This document shows, piece by piece, positions 8,246 through 33,417 of a DNA stretch of 36,529 nt. The notes under the pieces were generated by a model, which worked only from the letters and a program-made list of their open reading frames with translations, did no database searches and was not told the DNA's origin. A program made the translations under genes and the position numbers. The DNA lies in NCBI GenBank assembly GCA_027100635.1, contig JAMOOQ010000035.1:1-36529 (forward strand), written 5' to 3'. This stretch comes from Campylobacteraceae bacterium (GTDB taxonomy: Bacteria > Campylobacterota > Campylobacteria > Campylobacterales > Sulfurovaceae). Position 1 is the first letter of the stretch. Each line of letters opens with the position of its first letter.

Positions 8246-8890
8246 TTATTTATCTGTTATTATTAAAATATTTCTTTTTTCTGTTTTATTTTGAGATTCT
8301 AATTTATCTAATTCTATCTCTTTTTCTATTTTAATCAATTCTTTAATTTCTACATTTTTTATCTCTATAATATTATCTGTATTTTGATATTTAGTATAGC
8401 TTAATTTCTCTTTAGATTCCATAGAATCATTAATATACTCTTTTACCTCAGAAAATTTATTATTGAAAGTTGATTTAATATTATTATTTGAAACATAGAT
8501 AAAAAGCATTATAGTGATAAGAGTTAATAATACAATATTTTTTAATAAATTTCTACTCTTACTCCTATTATCTCTGTTATTTCTTCTTCTATAAGCAGAT
8601 TGGTTTACTTTTTTATTAATAGTTAAGTTATTTAATCTATATATAGATTGTTCTGCAACTCTTTTATATCTACTAAAATTATTTATTTTAAAAGAACTCT
8701 CATGCATAGATTTATTTCTTATGGTAGCAATATATCTTAAATCTTTAACTAACTGTATCTCTATTTTATTTTCTATAGAATCTATATAAGTATGTAAGCC
8801 CTTACCTTCTGCTTTAAATTTATCTTTTAAAATAGTCTCTATCTCTCTGCTAAAATATATAATTTTTGCAAGTTCTTCTTCATTTGTCAT
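8246..8890 (-). CDS. HEPN/DUF4145-like membrane protein, tandem copy 1
   Basis: 214 residues, not a named family that I recognise with certainty. Residues 1-90 are helical and contain IRNKSMHES, an Rx4H motif (R58, H63) in the RNxxxH form typical of HEPN and DUF4145 domains. A basic linker (about 90-115) leads to one TM segment (117-134). A charged, low-complexity C-terminal tail ends in ILIITDK. The N-terminal 80 residues are nearly identical in pattern to the neighbour at 8959-9573. HEPN domains are often RNases of toxin or defence systems, but many are not catalytic. No antitoxin-like partner is seen. Function is unknown; the HEPN link is inferred from the motif. Confidence 0.65.
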   Translation of the reverse strand: MTNEEELAKIIYFSREIETILKDKFKAEGKGLHTYIDSIENKIEIQLVKDLRYIATIRNKSMHESSFKINNFSRYKRVAEQSIYRLNNLTINKKVNQSAYRRRNNRDNRSKSRNLLKNIVLLTLITIMLFIYVSNNNIKSTFNNKFSEVKEYINDSMESKEKLSYTKYQNTDNIIEIKNVEIKELIKIEKEIELDKLESQNKTEKRNILIITDK

Positions 8891-8958
8891 ATTATAATAC
8901 TCCTTTATTAGTCACAAAATCTTTGATTTATCTGTTATTATCAAAATATTTCTTTTTT

Positions 8959-9573
8959 CTATTTTATCATTAAAAAAATTTCAAAAAGTACTATTGTCAT
9001 AATAGCTAAGAACCTATAATCTTTTACTAAATTACTACTATTATTCTTACGATTCTTTGTGGAACGAGGTAATAATACCTTTGTTCTAGCTTTCTGTGAG
9101 GCTGAAGGTATCACTTCCGATGAATCTAAAGGAAGAGATTTATTATTTATTTTTTTATTAACAATTGTAACTACTTTTCTCTTAATAGGTTTAACCATTT
9201 TTCTATTAGCAGGTTGAGATATTTCTCTATTAAGATTTAAATTCTTTATTCTCTTAGGTTTAACTACTTTTCTATTAACAGGTCGAGGTATTTCTCTATT
9301 AATATTTAAATTCTTTAATCTATTTATAGATTGTTCAGCAATTTTTATATATTTACTTAAATTATCTACTTTAAATGAACTATCATGCATAGAGTTATTT
9401 CTTATATGGGTAATATATCTTAAATCTTTAACTAACTGTTTCTCTATTTTATTTTCTACAGAATTTATATAAGTACCTAAACCTTGACCTTTAGCTTGAA
9501 ATTTAGTTCTTAAAATAGTCTCTATCTCCCTGCTAAAATATATAATTTTTACAAGTTCTTCTTCATTTGTCAT
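8959..9573 (-). CDS. HEPN/DUF4145-like membrane protein, tandem copy 2
   Basis: 204 residues, paralogue of 8246-8890. The N-terminal domain keeps IRNNSMHDS (R58, H63). The middle has an internal tandem repeat: KNLNINREIPRPVNRKVVKP is followed by KNLNLNREISQPANRKMVKP. From residue 152 it carries a decayed copy of the palindromic element (SEVIPSASQKA), absent from copy 1. A C-terminal TM (about 188-203) ends the protein. DNA just downstream (8929-8970) still encodes KRNILIITDK in another frame, so this copy has lost its original tail by a frame change. It overlaps the aguB stop by 4 bases (ATGA), which suggests co-transcription. Function unknown. Confidence 0.65.
   Translation of the reverse strand: MTNEEELVKIIYFSREIETILRTKFQAKGQGLGTYINSVENKIEKQLVKDLRYITHIRNNSMHDSSFKVDNLSKYIKIAEQSINRLKNLNINREIPRPVNRKVVKPKRIKNLNLNREISQPANRKMVKPIKRKVVTIVNKKINNKSLPLDSSEVIPSASQKARTKVLLPRSTKNRKNNSSNLVKDYRFLAIMTIVLFEIFLMIK
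9061..9120 (-). repeat. Palindromic element, decayed copy inside a gene
   Basis: On the minus strand it begins TCGGAAGTGAT, continues with CTTCAGCCTCACA and matches the other copies for about 60 bases with many changes toward the 3' end. It lies within the gene at 8959-9573 and is translated in the same frame as the two better copies, giving SEVIPSASQKARTK. Confidence 0.7.
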
Positions 9574-10463
9574 TTTATAATACTTCTTGATTGGTCACAA
9601 AATCTTTGATTTAAATCTTTATAGCATTCAATTCGTCTATCTCGTAAAAAAGGCCAAATATCTCTTGTCTCTTTAGTTAAATTAGAATCAATCTTAGCAT
9701 ATAATATCTTCTCAGAAGTTTTCGCTTGAGCAATAATTTTGCCTCCAGCATCGCTTACAAAACTATTTCCCCAAAATCTAATTCCATCTGTTACACCACT
9801 ACTATCAGATTCAAAACCCACACGATTACAGCTAATTACAGCAACTCCATTTGCAATTGCATGAGAGCGTTGAATAGTTATCCAGCTATCAAGTTGTCTA
9901 TCTTTTTCATCTTGTGAATCTTCATCAAACCATCCAATAGCAGTTGGATAAATCAAAATTTCTGCACCTTTTAAAGTCATAATTCTTGCCCCCTCAGGAT
10001 ACCATTGATCCCAACAAATCATCACTCCTAGCTTTCCAACACTTGTATCAATTGGCTTAAATCCATCTTCATCACCTTGAGTAAAATAAAACTTTTCATA
10101 AAATTGTGGGTCATCTGGGATATGCATTTTTCTATATTTTCCAGCAATTGTTCCATCTTTCTCAAATACTACAGATGTATTATGGTAAAGTCCTGCGGTT
10201 CTTTTTTCAAACAAAGAAGTTATGAGTACGACTTTATACTTTTTTGCAATCTTAGAAAAGTATTTAATATCTTCTTTAAAACTTAGTGCATAATCAAAAA
10301 ACTTTACATCTTCACTTTGGCAAAAATACTCATTTTGATGAAGCTCTTGAAGTACCACAAGTTTAGCTCCATTTTTTGAAGCCTCTTGAATCATCTTTTT
10401 TGTATATTTTATAGTTTCTTTTTTAGAGCCTTTATACTCTTGTTGAATCAATGCTACTTTCAT
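9570..10463 (-). CDS. aguB: N-carbamoylputrescine amidase
   Basis: 297-residue nitrilase-superfamily enzyme with the Glu-Lys-Cys triad: E40 (VLQELHQNEYF), K112 (KYRKMHIPDD) and C150 (GVMICWDQWYPEGAR). It hydrolyses N-carbamoylputrescine to putrescine, ammonia and CO2, the last step of the agmatine route to putrescine. The start is the ATG at 10463, overlapping the aguA stop (TAATG). A TTG 60 bases upstream is in frame but lies inside aguA and adds no domain. The partner enzyme directly upstream makes the assignment firm. The last codons overlap the start of the HEPN-like gene. Confidence 0.92.
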   Translation of the reverse strand: MKVALIQQEYKGSKKETIKYTKKMIQEASKNGAKLVVLQELHQNEYFCQSEDVKFFDYALSFKEDIKYFSKIAKKYKVVLITSLFEKRTAGLYHNTSVVFEKDGTIAGKYRKMHIPDDPQFYEKFYFTQGDEDGFKPIDTSVGKLGVMICWDQWYPEGARIMTLKGAEILIYPTAIGWFDEDSQDEKDRQLDSWITIQRSHAIANGVAVISCNRVGFESDSSGVTDGIRFWGNSFVSDAGGKIIAQAKTSEKILYAKIDSNLTKETRDIWPFLRDRRIECYKDLNQRFCDQSRSIIK

Positions 10464-19256: not shown

Positions 19257-19264
19257 TAAACTTA

Positions 19265-19336
19265 TCGGAACTGATGGCTTCAGCCTTACATAAATTTGGA
19301 GTTAAAGCATCAGTTCCGAATTTTGAAAGAAGTATA
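19265..19336 (+). repeat. Palindromic element, 72-bp intergenic copy
   Basis: It starts 8 bases after the nadA stop. Ends of the core are perfect 12-bp inverted repeats: TCGGAACTGATG (19265-19276) and CATCAGTTCCGA (19308-19319). The right extension AATTTTGAAAGAAGTATA to 19336 matches the in-gene copies, so the full 72-bp unit is present. It could also act as a 3' hairpin for nadA. Confidence 0.8.
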
Positions 19337-19338
19337 TT

Positions 19339-19362
19339 AGCTAAAAATATATATTTTCAGCT
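19339..19362. terminator. AT-rich hairpin in the nadA-nlpC spacer
   Basis: AGCT at both ends encloses AAAATATATATTTT, giving a near-perfect stem immediately after the palindromic element. T-rich sequence follows. It may end nadA transcription. The rest of the spacer (19257-19600) holds a -10-like box and two micro-ORFs. Confidence 0.35.
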
Positions 19363-20454: not shown

Positions 20455-21660
20455 TTATTTTTTACTAGGTGTTGATTCTCTTTCTGCTGGAGCTTCTTCC
20501 GCATCATCAGGAGTTTCAACATCAGGAGTTTCAACATCAGGAGTTTCAACATCAGGAGTTTCAACATCAGGAGTTTCAACATCAGGAGTTTCAACATCAA
20601 AAATATTATTATCAGGTATTTTTACCTCAAGATCATCTGCTGTTCCATTTTTACCAGTACTAGGTACTTCATCAACATCAGGAGTTTCAATATCATTATC
20701 ATTAATATCATTAATATCAACATCAGGAGTTTCAAAATCATTATCATTAATATCAACATCAGGAGCATCAAAATCATTATCATTAATATCATTAATATCA
20801 ACATCAGGAGCATCAAAATCATTATCATTAATATCATTAATATCAACATCAGGAGTTTCAACATCAGGAGTTTCAAAATCAGGAGCATCAACATCAGGAG
20901 TTTCAAAATCAGGAGCATCAACATCAGGAGTTTCAACATCAGGAGTTTCAACATCACTATCATCAACTTCTGTATCTGTAGTAGTATCCACATTTGGAAC
21001 AGCAGGTGTTACTCCTGGTTTTTCACCATTTACCCATTTGTTTTTACTATCATCATGATGTATAATAGCTTTATCTAAATCAACATCAATAATACCATCA
21101 CCATTTTCATCAATTAGAGCTTTCATTCTTGGATGAAGTCCAATAATTCCCTCTTCATTAAAATCTGATAAAAGAGTTGGTTTAAATTCAGGCTTAGTAA
21201 ACTCTTCTCTAATATCTTTCGGAATTTCGATACCATTTTCAGGATTATTATCAGCATCTATTGATTGTAAAACTCTAAGCATTAAACCTTCAGCCTCTAC
21301 TTTATCCTCTTCACTAATAATATCATCAGGAATAATATTCTTTGGTGTAACAAGACCATCTTCTGCTGGTTCTGCTTCTCCTAATTCAAGATTACCTACA
21401 GAGAATCTAACTATATCACCATCAACATAATCAAATGAACCATTTTCATCTGTTACACCAGTTTTACCTGATGGAGTTGCATTATAATCAAGACCTTCAA
21501 CTCCTGAATCAACAAAATATCCCTGTTTTACATTACTTCCTGTATCTGCTACCATTGGTGTTGTAGAATCATTAGATGAAGTTGAAGAACCACCTCCACA
21601 ACTTGATAGTGCTAATATAGTGATAATAGAAAGTGTACTGATTTTAAAAATGTTTTTCAT
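20455..21660 (-). CDS. Repeat-rich acidic lipoprotein
   Basis: 401 residues. Lipoprotein signal with Cys21 in ILALSSCGGGSS, then a Ser/Thr-rich spacer. A folded domain of about 170 residues follows, starting VKQGYFVDSGVEGLDYN and containing TGVTDENGSFDYVDGD..FSVGNLELG, a pattern found at the N-termini of many bacterial surface proteins. It includes Asp-rich DADNNPENG and DENGDGIIDVD (possible calcium loops). From about residue 230 the protein is built of VETPD, VDAPDFETPD and DINDINDNDFDAPD units. It is probably an outer-surface protein whose length varies by repeat number. Function unknown; calcium binding is inferred from acidity only. Confidence 0.75.
   Translation of the reverse strand: MKNIFKISTLSIITILALSSCGGGSSTSSNDSTTPMVADTGSNVKQGYFVDSGVEGLDYNATPSGKTGVTDENGSFDYVDGDIVRFSVGNLELGEAEPAEDGLVTPKNIIPDDIISEEDKVEAEGLMLRVLQSIDADNNPENGIEIPKDIREEFTKPEFKPTLLSDFNEEGIIGLHPRMKALIDENGDGIIDVDLDKAIIHHDDSKNKWVNGEKPGVTPAVPNVDTTTDTEVDDSDVETPDVETPDVDAPDFETPDVDAPDFETPDVETPDVDINDINDNDFDAPDVDINDINDNDFDAPDVDINDNDFETPDVDINDINDNDIETPDVDEVPSTGKNGTADDLEVKIPDNNIFDVETPDVETPDVETPDVETPDVETPDVETPDDAEEAPAERESTPSKK
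20506..20955 (-). repeat. Coding minisatellite (15-bp and longer units)
   Basis: Six perfect tandem copies of ATCAGGAGTTTCAAC (plus strand, 20506-20595) encode VETPD. After a unique stretch, 20674-20955 has higher-order units that alternate the 15-mer, variants with GCATCAAAATC, and ATCATTATCATTAATATC blocks (DINDND). All units are multiples of 3, so gain or loss of units keeps the frame. Confidence 0.9.
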
Positions 21661-23384: not shown

Positions 23385-24168
23385 AAACTCTACCTATAGA
23401 TAATGAAAAGGCATTTTTATAAGAGTTATCATCTAAACCTCTATCATAACGCATTTTTATAAAAACTTTTTCTGATACTTCATAATAATTACCAAAAGAT
23501 ATATTATGGTAGTTATCTTCATTTTCATAACTTGAATCACTATAGTTATAATTAAAATTTACTTGCCATTTATCACTCATCATATAACTTGTTCCAACCA
23601 TCAAACTACTGTAATTCTTATAGTTTTGTTTATCACTATCACCTGTTAAAGTATATCCATAACTACCATATATATTTTGAGCATTACTTAATCTATAATT
23701 TAAATTTATAGATGCAAAAAAATCAAACTCTTTAGAGCTAATATCACTATCATTATTTGGTATTTTCATACCCAAAGAATATTGTGTTGTAAATTTATTA
23801 TGCTTATGACTATACCCTCCAATTAGATAATAGTCTCCCCAAAGATTTAAATTATTATAAAGATTATCAAAAATATCATAAGATGAAGTACTCAAAGAGA
23901 GTGACCAGTTATTATATCTATAATTAGCATAGAAATTAAGAGAATTTGTTTGTAAATCACTCTTACTATATGCTATTTTTTTGCCAAAACTAAGGATTAA
24001 TTTTCCTCTATAACTCTGATTATAAGGACATCCATCCTCTCCCACCTCATCATCAAAAGATGTGTTTAAACATTTATCAATAGAATCATCAACTCCATCT
24101 ATATCCAAATCTTCATATCCATACAAAAATAGACTTAAAAAAGCCGTTAATATTACTACTCTTAACAT
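23377..24168 (-). CDS. Outer-membrane beta-barrel protein with thrombospondin type 3-like repeat
   Basis: 263 residues. Signal peptide 1-17 (VILTAFLSLFLYGYE). Next comes an Asp-rich calcium-type loop, DLDIDGVDDSIDKCLNTSF..EDGCP, as in TSP3/OmpA linker repeats, with two Cys likely disulphide-bonded. From about residue 55 there are alternating aromatic strands (NFYANYRYNNWSLSLSTSSY, YNYSDSSYENED) consistent with an outer-membrane barrel of some ten strands, ending in a terminal aromatic-type strand SLSIGRVFE. The start ATG overlaps the upstream gene by one base. Exact function is unknown; co-expression with the Pro-rich protein and the two-component pair is indicated by the overlaps. Confidence 0.65.
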   Translation of the reverse strand: MLRVVILTAFLSLFLYGYEDLDIDGVDDSIDKCLNTSFDDEVGEDGCPYNQSYRGKLILSFGKKIAYSKSDLQTNSLNFYANYRYNNWSLSLSTSSYDIFDNLYNNLNLWGDYYLIGGYSHKHNKFTTQYSLGMKIPNNDSDISSKEFDFFASINLNYRLSNAQNIYGSYGYTLTGDSDKQNYKNYSSLMVGTSYMMSDKWQVNFNYNYSDSSYENEDNYHNISFGNYYEVSEKVFIKMRYDRGLDDNSYKNAFSLSIGRVFE

Positions 24169-25004
24169 TAAAAGATTCTCCTAATATGTTGAGGTTGCTC
24201 TTGAACTGTTGGTTCTTGTGTTATTTGAACTTCTGGTTGATTATTATTAACCTCAACAGGAGTAGTAGGTTCTTGTGGATTTTTAATCTCATGAGGAAAC
24301 TCTTGTATTGGAGTTTCAACCAAAGGTTCTTTAATAATAGCAGGAACTTCAATTTGTGGAGTTTCAATTCTTGGCTCAGGAATAACTACTGGAACTTTAA
24401 TCTTAGGAATTTCAACTTTTGGTTCATTAACTGCTGGAATAATAGGGTTATTCATTTTAGGAGTTTCAATTATATCTTCTTGGACAACTACAGGAACTGG
24501 AATCTCAATCTTAGGAATTTCAATAGTTGGCTCTTTTTTTATAATAGGATTATCTATTTTAGGAGTTTCAATTATAGGTTCTTGAACTACTACTGGAACT
24601 TTAACCTTAGGTATCTCTAGTTCTGGCTCAGGAACTACTACTGGAACTACTACTGGAACTTCAATCTTAGGAATTTTAACTTTTTGAATTATCGGTATAA
24701 TATTTAATGATGATTCCATATTATCTCTTTGATTTATGATAAGAGGTTTTTTATATCTAATAGTATTAGATCTTTGACTTAAAGATTTTTTAATCTCTTT
24801 AATTATTTTTACTCTTTTTAATTTATTGATAGTTCTAACTTTTACTTTAAGTTTATTAATCAGAACTCTTTTTTGAGATTGAGGTGCTTTTTTAATCTCT
24901 TGTACTAATCTTTTAATATCATTATTAAGCTCTCTATTATCTTTAGCTTGAAGTGTTTGATATGAAAAAATAATATATATAAAAATAATTTTAATATAAA
25001 AAAT
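24168..25004 (-). CDS. Secreted Pro-rich repeat protein, apparent ATT start
   Basis: The first ATG is at 24719, but the same frame is open to a TAA at 25037 and encodes a basic N-terminal part and a good signal peptide (FYIKIIFIYIIFSYQTLQA). No ATG, GTG or TTG occurs in it. ATT at 25004 lies 6 bases after AAAAGGA (25017-25011); this gives 278 residues. After cleavage, residues 20-95 are Lys/Arg-rich and helical. The rest is Pro-Glu-Val repeats of the type KIEVPVV, PEPELEIPKVKVP, as in TonB-like or periplasm-spanning linkers. It is the first gene of a four-gene overlapping operon with the barrel, regulator and kinase. A periplasm-spanning or wall-binding role is a guess. Confidence 0.6.
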   Translation of the reverse strand: MFYIKIIFIYIIFSYQTLQAKDNRELNNDIKRLVQEIKKAPQSQKRVLINKLKVKVRTINKLKRVKIIKEIKKSLSQRSNTIRYKKPLIINQRDNMESSLNIIPIIQKVKIPKIEVPVVVPVVVPEPELEIPKVKVPVVVQEPIIETPKIDNPIIKKEPTIEIPKIEIPVPVVVQEDIIETPKMNNPIIPAVNEPKVEIPKIKVPVVIPEPRIETPQIEVPAIIKEPLVETPIQEFPHEIKNPQEPTTPVEVNNNQPEVQITQEPTVQEQPQHIRRIF

Positions 25005-25062: not shown

Positions 25063-26001
25063 CTAGAACTTATATTTACGCTCATATCTTTTTATCATAC
25101 TCTCATTTCCAATCAATCCACCTTGATGAATATATAAAGTTTCTTCATTAAATATATCACTATATTTTTCTATCACTAACCATCCTTTTGGATCATATAA
25201 TAAGTCAAATTCTATTTTAGATTTCTCTTTTAACTCTAACCAAATTTCATAATTATTTTTATATAGTTTTCCAAAATGATATTTTTTATCTAAAAGTAAA
25301 ATTTCAGGATAATATTTTGAATTTTCTTCTAGCATTTTAAATTGCTCTAAAAGATACTCTTTATCTCCTACACAAGGGATTGTATAAACTTTTATATTCT
25401 CTTTTGTAAGAGCTTTTGATAAAAATAGTGCAGTTGTTCCAGTACCCGAGGGGAGGATAACTTTAAGATTAGAAAAGTTATTTTTATTTTTCCACTCAAC
25501 TATTTCAGAAGCTAAAATATCAATACCAACTTTTGCCTCTAAATCTCTACCACCCTCTTGAATAATTAAAGTATCATTATCTATTAGAGTTCTTTCCAAG
25601 TTTGGAACTGGTGCTTTAGCTCCAGCTTTTGGTGAGGCTGAAGCCATCACTTCCGAAATATTTTCACCAATAATTAAATTCATCCCATTTTCAAGAGCAT
25701 ATTTATAGTTTCCCTCTGGATTTTCTTGTAGATATGAGGGAATATGATTAACCAAATAGTCAAATTTCCAGTTTCTTTTTTTACATAAAACAGATAATGA
25801 ATACATTGCATTTGACTGAACTGAACCATAAGATATAACTTTTTTAATATTAGGGAAATCATTAATTAGATAAAAATATAATTTTCTTGCTTTATTTCCA
25901 GAAAAGTCATCACTTAAAAGGTCATCTCGTTTAATAAATATCTTTTTATTTTTAAAGCTAATTTGTTCTATTGGAGATATTTGAAAAGGGTTGTTTCTCA
26001 T
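25063..26001 (-). CDS. PLP-dependent ACC deaminase/D-cysteine desulfhydrase family protein with in-frame element insertion
   Basis: 312 residues, fold-type II PLP enzyme. Cofactor Lys37 is in DDFSGNKARKL. SYGSVQSNAMYSLS binds the substrate carboxylate, LPSGTGTTALFLSK forms the phosphate loop, and YIHQGGLIGNES lies near the C-terminus. Substrate choice between ACC, D-cysteine or others cannot be read. Residues 116-139 (SEVMASASPKA..APVPNLERTL) are encoded exactly by the 72-bp palindromic element at 25585-25656 and interrupt the usual path from NGMNLIIGEN to DTLIIQEGG. The frame is kept on both sides, so the protein may still fold with an extra loop. It starts at ATG and stands alone. Confidence 0.8.
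   Translation of the reverse strand: MRNNPFQISPIEQISFKNKKIFIKRDDLLSDDFSGNKARKLYFYLINDFPNIKKVISYGSVQSNAMYSLSVLCKKRNWKFDYLVNHIPSYLQENPEGNYKYALENGMNLIIGENISEVMASASPKAGAKAPVPNLERTLIDNDTLIIQEGGRDLEAKVGIDILASEIVEWKNKNNFSNLKVILPSGTGTTALFLSKALTKENIKVYTIPCVGDKEYLLEQFKMLEENSKYYPEILLLDKKYHFGKLYKNNYEIWLELKEKSKIEFDLLYDPKGWLVIEKYSDIFNEETLYIHQGGLIGNESMIKRYERKYKF
25585..25656 (-). repeat. Palindromic element, 72-bp copy inside a PLP-enzyme gene
   Basis: On the minus strand it starts TCGGAAGTGATGGCTTCAGC, continues through AAAGCTGGAGCTAAAGCACC and ends GGAAAGAACTCTA. It matches the copy at 30298-30369 at nearly every position. It is 24 codons, with no stop in the gene's frame. Confidence 0.9.
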
Positions 26002-29367: not shown

Positions 29368-30570
29368 ATGTTGAAAAAAAGAAAAAGAATATTTAAACTT
29401 TTTTTATTTTTTGTAACCACCTTTTTATATAGTGATAATTACATTATAAATAAATATCCAACTTATAATTATGTTTTATCTCAATTTGGTGTAGATAATA
29501 ATTATATTTATAATAATTCTTTTAATAAATTTGTAATTAAAAAAGAGAAATCTTTAACTAGGTTTTATAAAAACTCTATTAAAAGAGGGAAAGATTATAT
29601 TCCAACATTTAAATATATGCTAAGAGATGATGGATTAAGTGACTTGTTTATATATATGTCAATGGTTGAATCAGGATTTAATCCAAATGTAATATCACCA
29701 AAAAAAGCTGTTGGAATTTGGCAATTTATGCCATCAACGGCAAGACATTATAATTTAAGTGTAAATAAATATATAGATGAAAGATATAATCCAATATCAT
29801 CAACAACTGCTGCAATTAAATATCTTAAAAAATTAAAAAAAGATTTTGGAAAGTGGTATTTGGCGATTATGGCTTATAATTGTGGAGAGGGGAGAGTGGC
29901 AAAGGCTATTAAAAAAGCTGGAAGTGATGATATTGTAGTTTTACTTGATGAAAATCAAAAATATATCCCAAAAGAGACAAGAGAGTATGTAAAAAAAATT
30001 TTATTATTATCAATGATTGGAGAAAATAATCCATATAACTCAAATATTCCACTTGCATTTAAATTTAAAGAAAATACAATTATTAATTATGATGATGAGG
30101 GAGTTGTTGAGGTATTTGTAAAAAGGGGAACTAATTTGTCAATTTTGGCTCAAATTATAGGAGTTGATAAGAATATATTATCAAAGATGAATAGCCATAT
30201 TAAAAATCAAAATTCTATGGTAGAAGAGATTACAAATATAACTATTCCAAAAAATAAATTAGCTCAATTCTACCTTTTATATGATATTGATAATTCATCG
30301 GAAGTGATGGCTTCAGCCTTACCAAAAGCTGGAGCTAAAGCACCAGTTCCAAGTTTTGAAAGAACTCTATCAGAAATAAAACCTAAAGATGAGTATTTTT
30401 TATCTTATATAGTAGAGAATAATATTTCTATATATAAGTTAGCTAATGAGTATAATATAACTATGGGTGATATATGTAAGGCAAATAGATTTTTAAAAAC
30501 AAATTTAGAGATAGGAGAGATTATATTAATCCCTACAACAGAAGAGCATTTTAATACTTTAGTGAGATAG
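29368..30570 (+). CDS. mltD: MltD-type lytic transglycosylase with in-frame element insertion
   Basis: 400 residues. Signal anchor at 8-22. SLT catalytic domain at about 75-215, with Glu101 in MSMVESGFNPNVISPK, GIWQFMPSTARHY, and AYNCGEGRVAKAI. LysM 1 is around VFVKRGTNLSILAQIIGV, LysM 2 is YIVENNISIYKLANEYN to the end. It cleaves the glycan strand of peptidoglycan in the periplasm. Residues 311-334 (SEVMASALPKA..APVPSFERTL) are encoded by the palindromic element at 30298-30369 and fall in the linker between the LysM domains, where extra residues should be tolerated. It begins right after nth. Confidence 0.9.
   Translation: MLKKRKRIFKLFLFFVTTFLYSDNYIINKYPTYNYVLSQFGVDNNYIYNNSFNKFVIKKEKSLTRFYKNSIKRGKDYIPTFKYMLRDDGLSDLFIYMSMVESGFNPNVISPKKAVGIWQFMPSTARHYNLSVNKYIDERYNPISSTTAAIKYLKKLKKDFGKWYLAIMAYNCGEGRVAKAIKKAGSDDIVVLLDENQKYIPKETREYVKKILLLSMIGENNPYNSNIPLAFKFKENTIINYDDEGVVEVFVKRGTNLSILAQIIGVDKNILSKMNSHIKNQNSMVEEITNITIPKNKLAQFYLLYDIDNSSEVMASALPKAGAKAPVPSFERTLSEIKPKDEYFLSYIVENNISIYKLANEYNITMGDICKANRFLKTNLEIGEIILIPTTEEHFNTLVR
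30298..30369 (+). repeat. Palindromic element, 72-bp copy inside mltD
   Basis: TCGGAAGTGATGGCTTCAGC starts it, GGAGCTAAAGCACCAGTTCC is the opposite arm, and a second small hairpin around TTCCAAGTTTTGAA leads to AGAACTCTA. It is 24 sense codons in the same frame and orientation relative to its gene as the copies at 25585 and 9061. Confidence 0.92.
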
Positions 30571-33283: not shown

Positions 33284-33309
33284 AAAACTTTAAACATATA
33301 AATAACTAC

Positions 33310-33364
33310 TCGGAATTGGTGCTTTAGCTCCAACTTTTTGTGAGGCTAAAGCCATCACTTCCGA
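33310..33364 (-). repeat. Palindromic element, core copy between dnaK and htpG
   Basis: Core only (55 bp). TCGGAA at 33310-33315 and TTCCGA at 33359-33364 are perfect ends; inside, GGTGCTTTAGCTCC pairs imperfectly with GAGGCTAAAGCCATC. The TTTTGAAAGAAC extension of the 72-bp copies is missing. It occupies the dnaK-htpG spacer and may act as a hairpin in that RNA. Confidence 0.85.
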
Positions 33365-33417
33365 TTGGTTTTAATATACAAAAAAATCAAAAAATATAAT
33401 AAAATAGGAAAATATAA

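Follow-up and report, generated by a model that had tools for sequence, protein, structure and literature searches.

A palindromic repeat in frame within a PLP-dependent enzyme of a Sulfurovaceae-type bacterium

Coding palindromes and the type A repeat

Palindromes that code for protein are familiar above all from Rickettsiales. The RPEs of Rickettsia lie in frame within many genes, and a guanylate kinase that bears one is translated and active, with a changed affinity for its substrate (PMC2229807). REPs are also known from inside ORFs, and two Xanthomonas species carry different REPs at approximately the same position in recB (PMC3733652). Among the papers searched, none dealt with palindromic elements together with Arcobacter. 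The repeat described here, termed type A, belongs to a Sulfurovaceae-type lineage and is of the same kind as the RPEs and the intragenic REPs, so that the phenomenon is already known; our analysis places it at genome scale in Sulfurovaceae-type Campylobacterota, with empty sites at hand in the same genus. One copy lies within the gene for a PLP-dependent enzyme, where an RPE-like coding palindrome has very probably been inserted in frame, and recently, and has been tolerated by the enzyme.

Like the RPEs of Rickettsia and their equivalents in Wolbachia, type A is a small, dispersed palindrome with hairpin potential that lies in frame in many unrelated genes; unlike the RPEs, which measure 105-146 bp, it spans approximately 62-95 nt. 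Judged by an exact 22-base type A pattern, which matched only records from Campylobacterota, no relation in sequence to the RPEs was apparent. With the GTAG/CGTC-tagged REPs it shares its form as a small palindrome and the presence of some copies in ORFs, but neither tetranucleotide occurs in the type A consensus on either strand. Long type A copies resemble MITEs (Correia/NEMIS, ERIC, RUP) in their outer inverted arms ending in TA. In contrast to MITEs, copies within genes often lack these arms, and the MAG, which is 77% complete, yielded neither a transposase with ends matching type A nor a transposase of the DDE_3 (IS630-type) family.

Structure, spread and host genes of type A

The MAG holds about 36 copies of type A. 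A working consensus assembled from the copies reads (TTTAGACTTCTTTCA)AAACTCATCGGAAGTGATGGCTTCAGCCTCACCAAAAGCTGGAGCTAAAGCACCAGTTCCAAG(TTTTGAAAGAACTCTAATA), in which the brackets denote the outer arms; the core measures about 62 nt and the long form, including the outer inverted arms, about 95 nt. The long consensus forms a hairpin of -37 kcal/mol (z -6.7), and that of the 72-nt copy within the PLP enzyme is weaker (z -2.1). Present in the long copies, the outer arms are cut or missing in many of the copies within genes, that of the PLP enzyme included. Within genes, the repeat is found in both orientations, and the resulting peptides are of two types, SEVMASASPKAGAKAPVPSFERTL and KLGTGALAPAFGEAEAITSDE.

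Type A probably spread as a MITE-like or REP-like element. The TA at the ends of the long copies is only suggestive as to a target-site duplication. A RAYT/Y1 transposase was considered as the mobiliser and rejected, the sole Y1 gene being flanked by inverted repeats of its own and not by type A. The outer arms of the long copies are common to another, modular repeat of the same genome (L172-L201), which has the ends TAGANTTCTTTCAAAACT / AGTTTTGAAAGAANTCTA and variable internal units (GTCATTCCGTGC..., GTCATTCTGAAT...); the pattern AGTTTTGAAAGAANTCTA gave 52 matches in its own genome, as against 10 for the reversed control. A 113-bp MITE, designated type B, has inverted ends CAATGCCAATGAATTAAG and a core related to type A, and is nested in type A copies at L065, L066, L073 and L061 with an apparent duplication of about 10 bp around GGCTTCAGCC.

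ORFs of 211-1114 aa span 20 of the 36 type A copies (each copy counted once), and the remaining 16 lie in no ORF longer than 79 aa. The related 113-bp MITE has no open frame on either strand, and none of its 14 copies falls in an ORF longer than 72 aa (p=1.6e-4 for 20/36 versus 0/14). Survival in a coding frame exceeds that of a non-coding repeat three-fold, as would be expected under selection against disruption, and such selection has probably been at work. Host ORFs of type A include those for a DnaX-like protein (two copies), metH, mnmG (at the C-terminus), recJ, an SdhB/FrdB-like iron-sulfur protein, an M20/M42-type peptidase, an HI0933 flavoprotein, a Suv3-like helicase, a PglB-like protein, an alpha-2-macroglobulin (A2M), an FtsX-like permease (two copies, in frame and about 150 nt apart at L059:1986-2200), an ABC ATPase and an MltD-like protein. 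In a few ORFs, the pilin-like one of L056 and that of L062, the type A copy is near an end and may fall outside the translated or conserved part.

Alignments within the genus reveal an empty or shorter site in ten genes besides that of the PLP enzyme, namely those for metH, the iron-sulfur protein, recJ, the peptidase, HI0933, the ABC ATPase, MltD, Suv3, PglB and A2M; mnmG was left out of this comparison because its copy lies at the C-terminus. Relative to the same-genus orthologues, the net gain in length at type A sites is mostly 20-31 residues. It amounts to 8 residues in metH, where the copy is truncated, and to 14-24 residues in HI0933 and Suv3, for which the alignments are less clean.

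The PLP-dependent enzyme and its insert

The window, that is, the whole stretch of 36,529 nt that was analysed, contains five type A copies, one of them in an intact ORF of 312 aa (25063-26001, minus strand) for a PLP-dependent enzyme resembling ACC deaminase / D-cysteine desulfhydrase. A Pfam search of this protein gave no match at 1e-3, and NCBIfam and PDB sequences were used in its place for the family assignment. Residues 7-309 match PDB 9jqf, an ACC deaminase / D-cysteine desulfhydrase (E=2.7e-58), and the NCBIfam model TIGR01275 scores 47.7 bits (E=1.3e-12), below its cut-off of 289.4 bits. Judged by sequence, the protein is a relative of ACC deaminase / D-cysteine desulfhydrase that its score does not place in the curated subfamily TIGR01275.

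The copy within this ORF occupies 25585-25656 on the minus strand and encodes residues 116-139 (SEVMASASPKAGAKAPVPNLERTL); its right edge may reach 25579. An earlier note on this DNA had taken these residues to be exactly element-encoded. That they are encoded by the repeat is upheld, but 'exactly' is slightly too sharp: ...CTAATAGAT stands at the right end of some other type A copies, as it does in the enzyme copy, and I140-D141 may therefore be derived from the element as well. In its own MAG, the segment gives 46 matches, including several that belong to a related MITE, and the best besides itself is to 30298-30369 (E = 1.7e-26, 94% over 72 nt). The copy shares 96% identity with the working consensus over the matched part and so appears to be young. 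Its left outer arm is absent or degraded, and on each strand exactly one of its frames is free of stops. An Rfam search of the insertion site gave no credible RNA family.

Two of the other copies in the window are also in ORFs. That at 30292-30369 (plus strand) lies within the ORF of an MltD-like lytic transglycosylase (29368-30567), in the same frame as in the PLP enzyme, and this ORF is a net 21 residues longer than its orthologue in G001; a partial copy at 9085-9123 (minus strand) lies in frame within a 211-aa ORF (8962-9594) with no NCBIfam match. The copies at 19258-19339 (plus strand) and 33308-33372 (minus strand) are outside any ORF of at least 60 aa.

Within the enzyme, the insert loop follows the lysine motif (GNKARK, K37) and precedes the phosphate-binding motif (SGTGTT, residues 185-190). 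As the earlier note had held, the element peptide is placed inside the fold rather than at a terminus. In a single-sequence AlphaFold model, whose mean pLDDT of 50 is too poor for the loop to be judged, residues 116-139 fall between predicted strands at 109-111 and 144-147. Same-genus orthologues (L020, L021 and L024) are without the segment, and the enzyme described here is a net 22-23 residues longer than they are at that point. A similar segment of 24 residues lacking the repeat, which the earlier note had named as evidence that would speak against its reading, was not found in close relatives, most of which have 25-31 residues from NGM to EGGR, as against 48 in the enzyme of the window. 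Sequence alignment with 9jqf gives the enzyme of the window about 14 extra residues in the insert loop. The distant homologue 1j0a aligns over the insert region with little gap, its native segment there being similar in length, and a longer native segment at this point is therefore compatible with the fold. No second genome was found with the same type A insertion in the enzyme.

The residue is kept at all 74 of the columns outside the insert that are conserved in at least 95% of 81 related sequences, an alignment in which a few loci are represented twice. K37 and the SGTGTT motif are among these positions, in agreement with the claim that the cofactor motifs on either side are intact. As far as its sequence goes, the enzyme is free of any sign of decay outside the insert, and with its insert it most likely still folds and works. 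The protein is presumably translated with its activity retained, and selection has presumably had a role in this. The insertion might instead have abolished activity so recently that the gene, though dead, has had too little time to collect further mutations. A copy as young as this one, with its 96% identity to the consensus, would fit such a gene; the open frame and the 74 conserved positions would not be expected of it, relatives with other inserts in the same loop have intact genes, and many host genes in the same genome share the pattern. We consider a dead gene unlikely.

Unrelated repeats in two loops of the enzyme

The loop that holds the type A copy has received other repeats in other genomes. 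In G033 it carries YCHCETLKKSWQSSVSNGLPQSFGLRND, the DNA of which has 10 matches in that genome; in G025 it carries IPAKAGIQQDMDPRVKHEDD, with 23 matches in G025; and in G064 and G094 it carries CHSEFISESKNKEILKQVQYDD, which is multicopy in G064. The loops of G156, G188 and G035 also look repeat-derived, with weaker support from short or few extra matches. A second loop, at residues 184-214, is likewise variable among relatives, and in G192 (L143) it contains a repeat that recurs in full or in part dozens of times in that genome and whose ends resemble type A by eye. Because repeats have been accepted there several times independently across the Sulfurovaceae, the enzyme possesses two permissive loops. 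The position of the type A insert is thus permissive rather than surprising, given that this hypervariable loop took other repeats and that 1j0a has its native segment there.

Two pairs of species (G033/G071 and G064/G094) share an insert, with dN/dS values of 0.14 and 0.20 for the sequence outside it. Since the nucleotide alignments of both pairs are mosaic from recombination, these values support, rather than prove, function after insertion. Between G064 and G094 (L106 and L111), the insert is identical over 66 nt, against a difference of about 17% in the remainder of the gene; this pattern points to a recent tract exchange, to homogenisation or to insertion in parallel.

The same loop bears on the idea that the peptide is a functional segment, altering substrate access, assembly or regulation and kept by selection. 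Its location inside the fold, in a loop whose length and sequence vary between relatives, would suit such a role, and an RPE altered the substrate affinity of the Rickettsia guanylate kinase (PMC2229807). Against this, relatives hold unrelated peptides in the same loop, and the peptide reads as the element's generic translation and has diverged little from other copies; we judge a selected function to be very improbable. That two loci were wrongly joined at a repeat is scarcely credible even for a MAG in 57 contigs, where repeats can break or misjoin assemblies, since both halves belong to one enzyme collinear with its orthologues and ten other genes show the same in-frame pattern with empty sites.

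On the most probable account, the short palindromic type A element disperses through Sulfurovaceae genomes, and insertions into genes survive where they combine a stop-free frame, a net length divisible by three and a permissive loop, mostly as 20-31 added residues; other insertions within genes would be removed by selection. The copy in the loop of the PLP enzyme between GNKARK and SGTGTT is, on this account, one recent survivor. Type A may in addition have been shaped by survival in genes, as a mobile sequence adapted so that proteins tolerate its peptide, for which enzymes like the present one would be repeated safe landing sites. This extension is prompted by the single open frame on each strand, by the small peptides, rich in Ala/Pro/Lys or in Ala/Glu, and by the reduction of many copies within genes to a core of about 20-24 codons; we regard it as doubtful.

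A single enzyme with several unrelated repeats in two loops across species provides independent replicates on the permissive positions of a protein, and these replicates also bear on the extent to which mobile DNA is a source of new protein sequence. The loop of the PLP enzyme is, in this sense, a well-replicated natural test of protein tolerance.

Other features of the window include an array of a 15-nt tandem repeat unit at 20461-21046 and two direct copies of 300 nt at 8587-9569, with 85% identity and 683 nt apart. An ORF of 183 aa at 24168-24719 is rich in Pro, Val and Glu and contains internal repeats.
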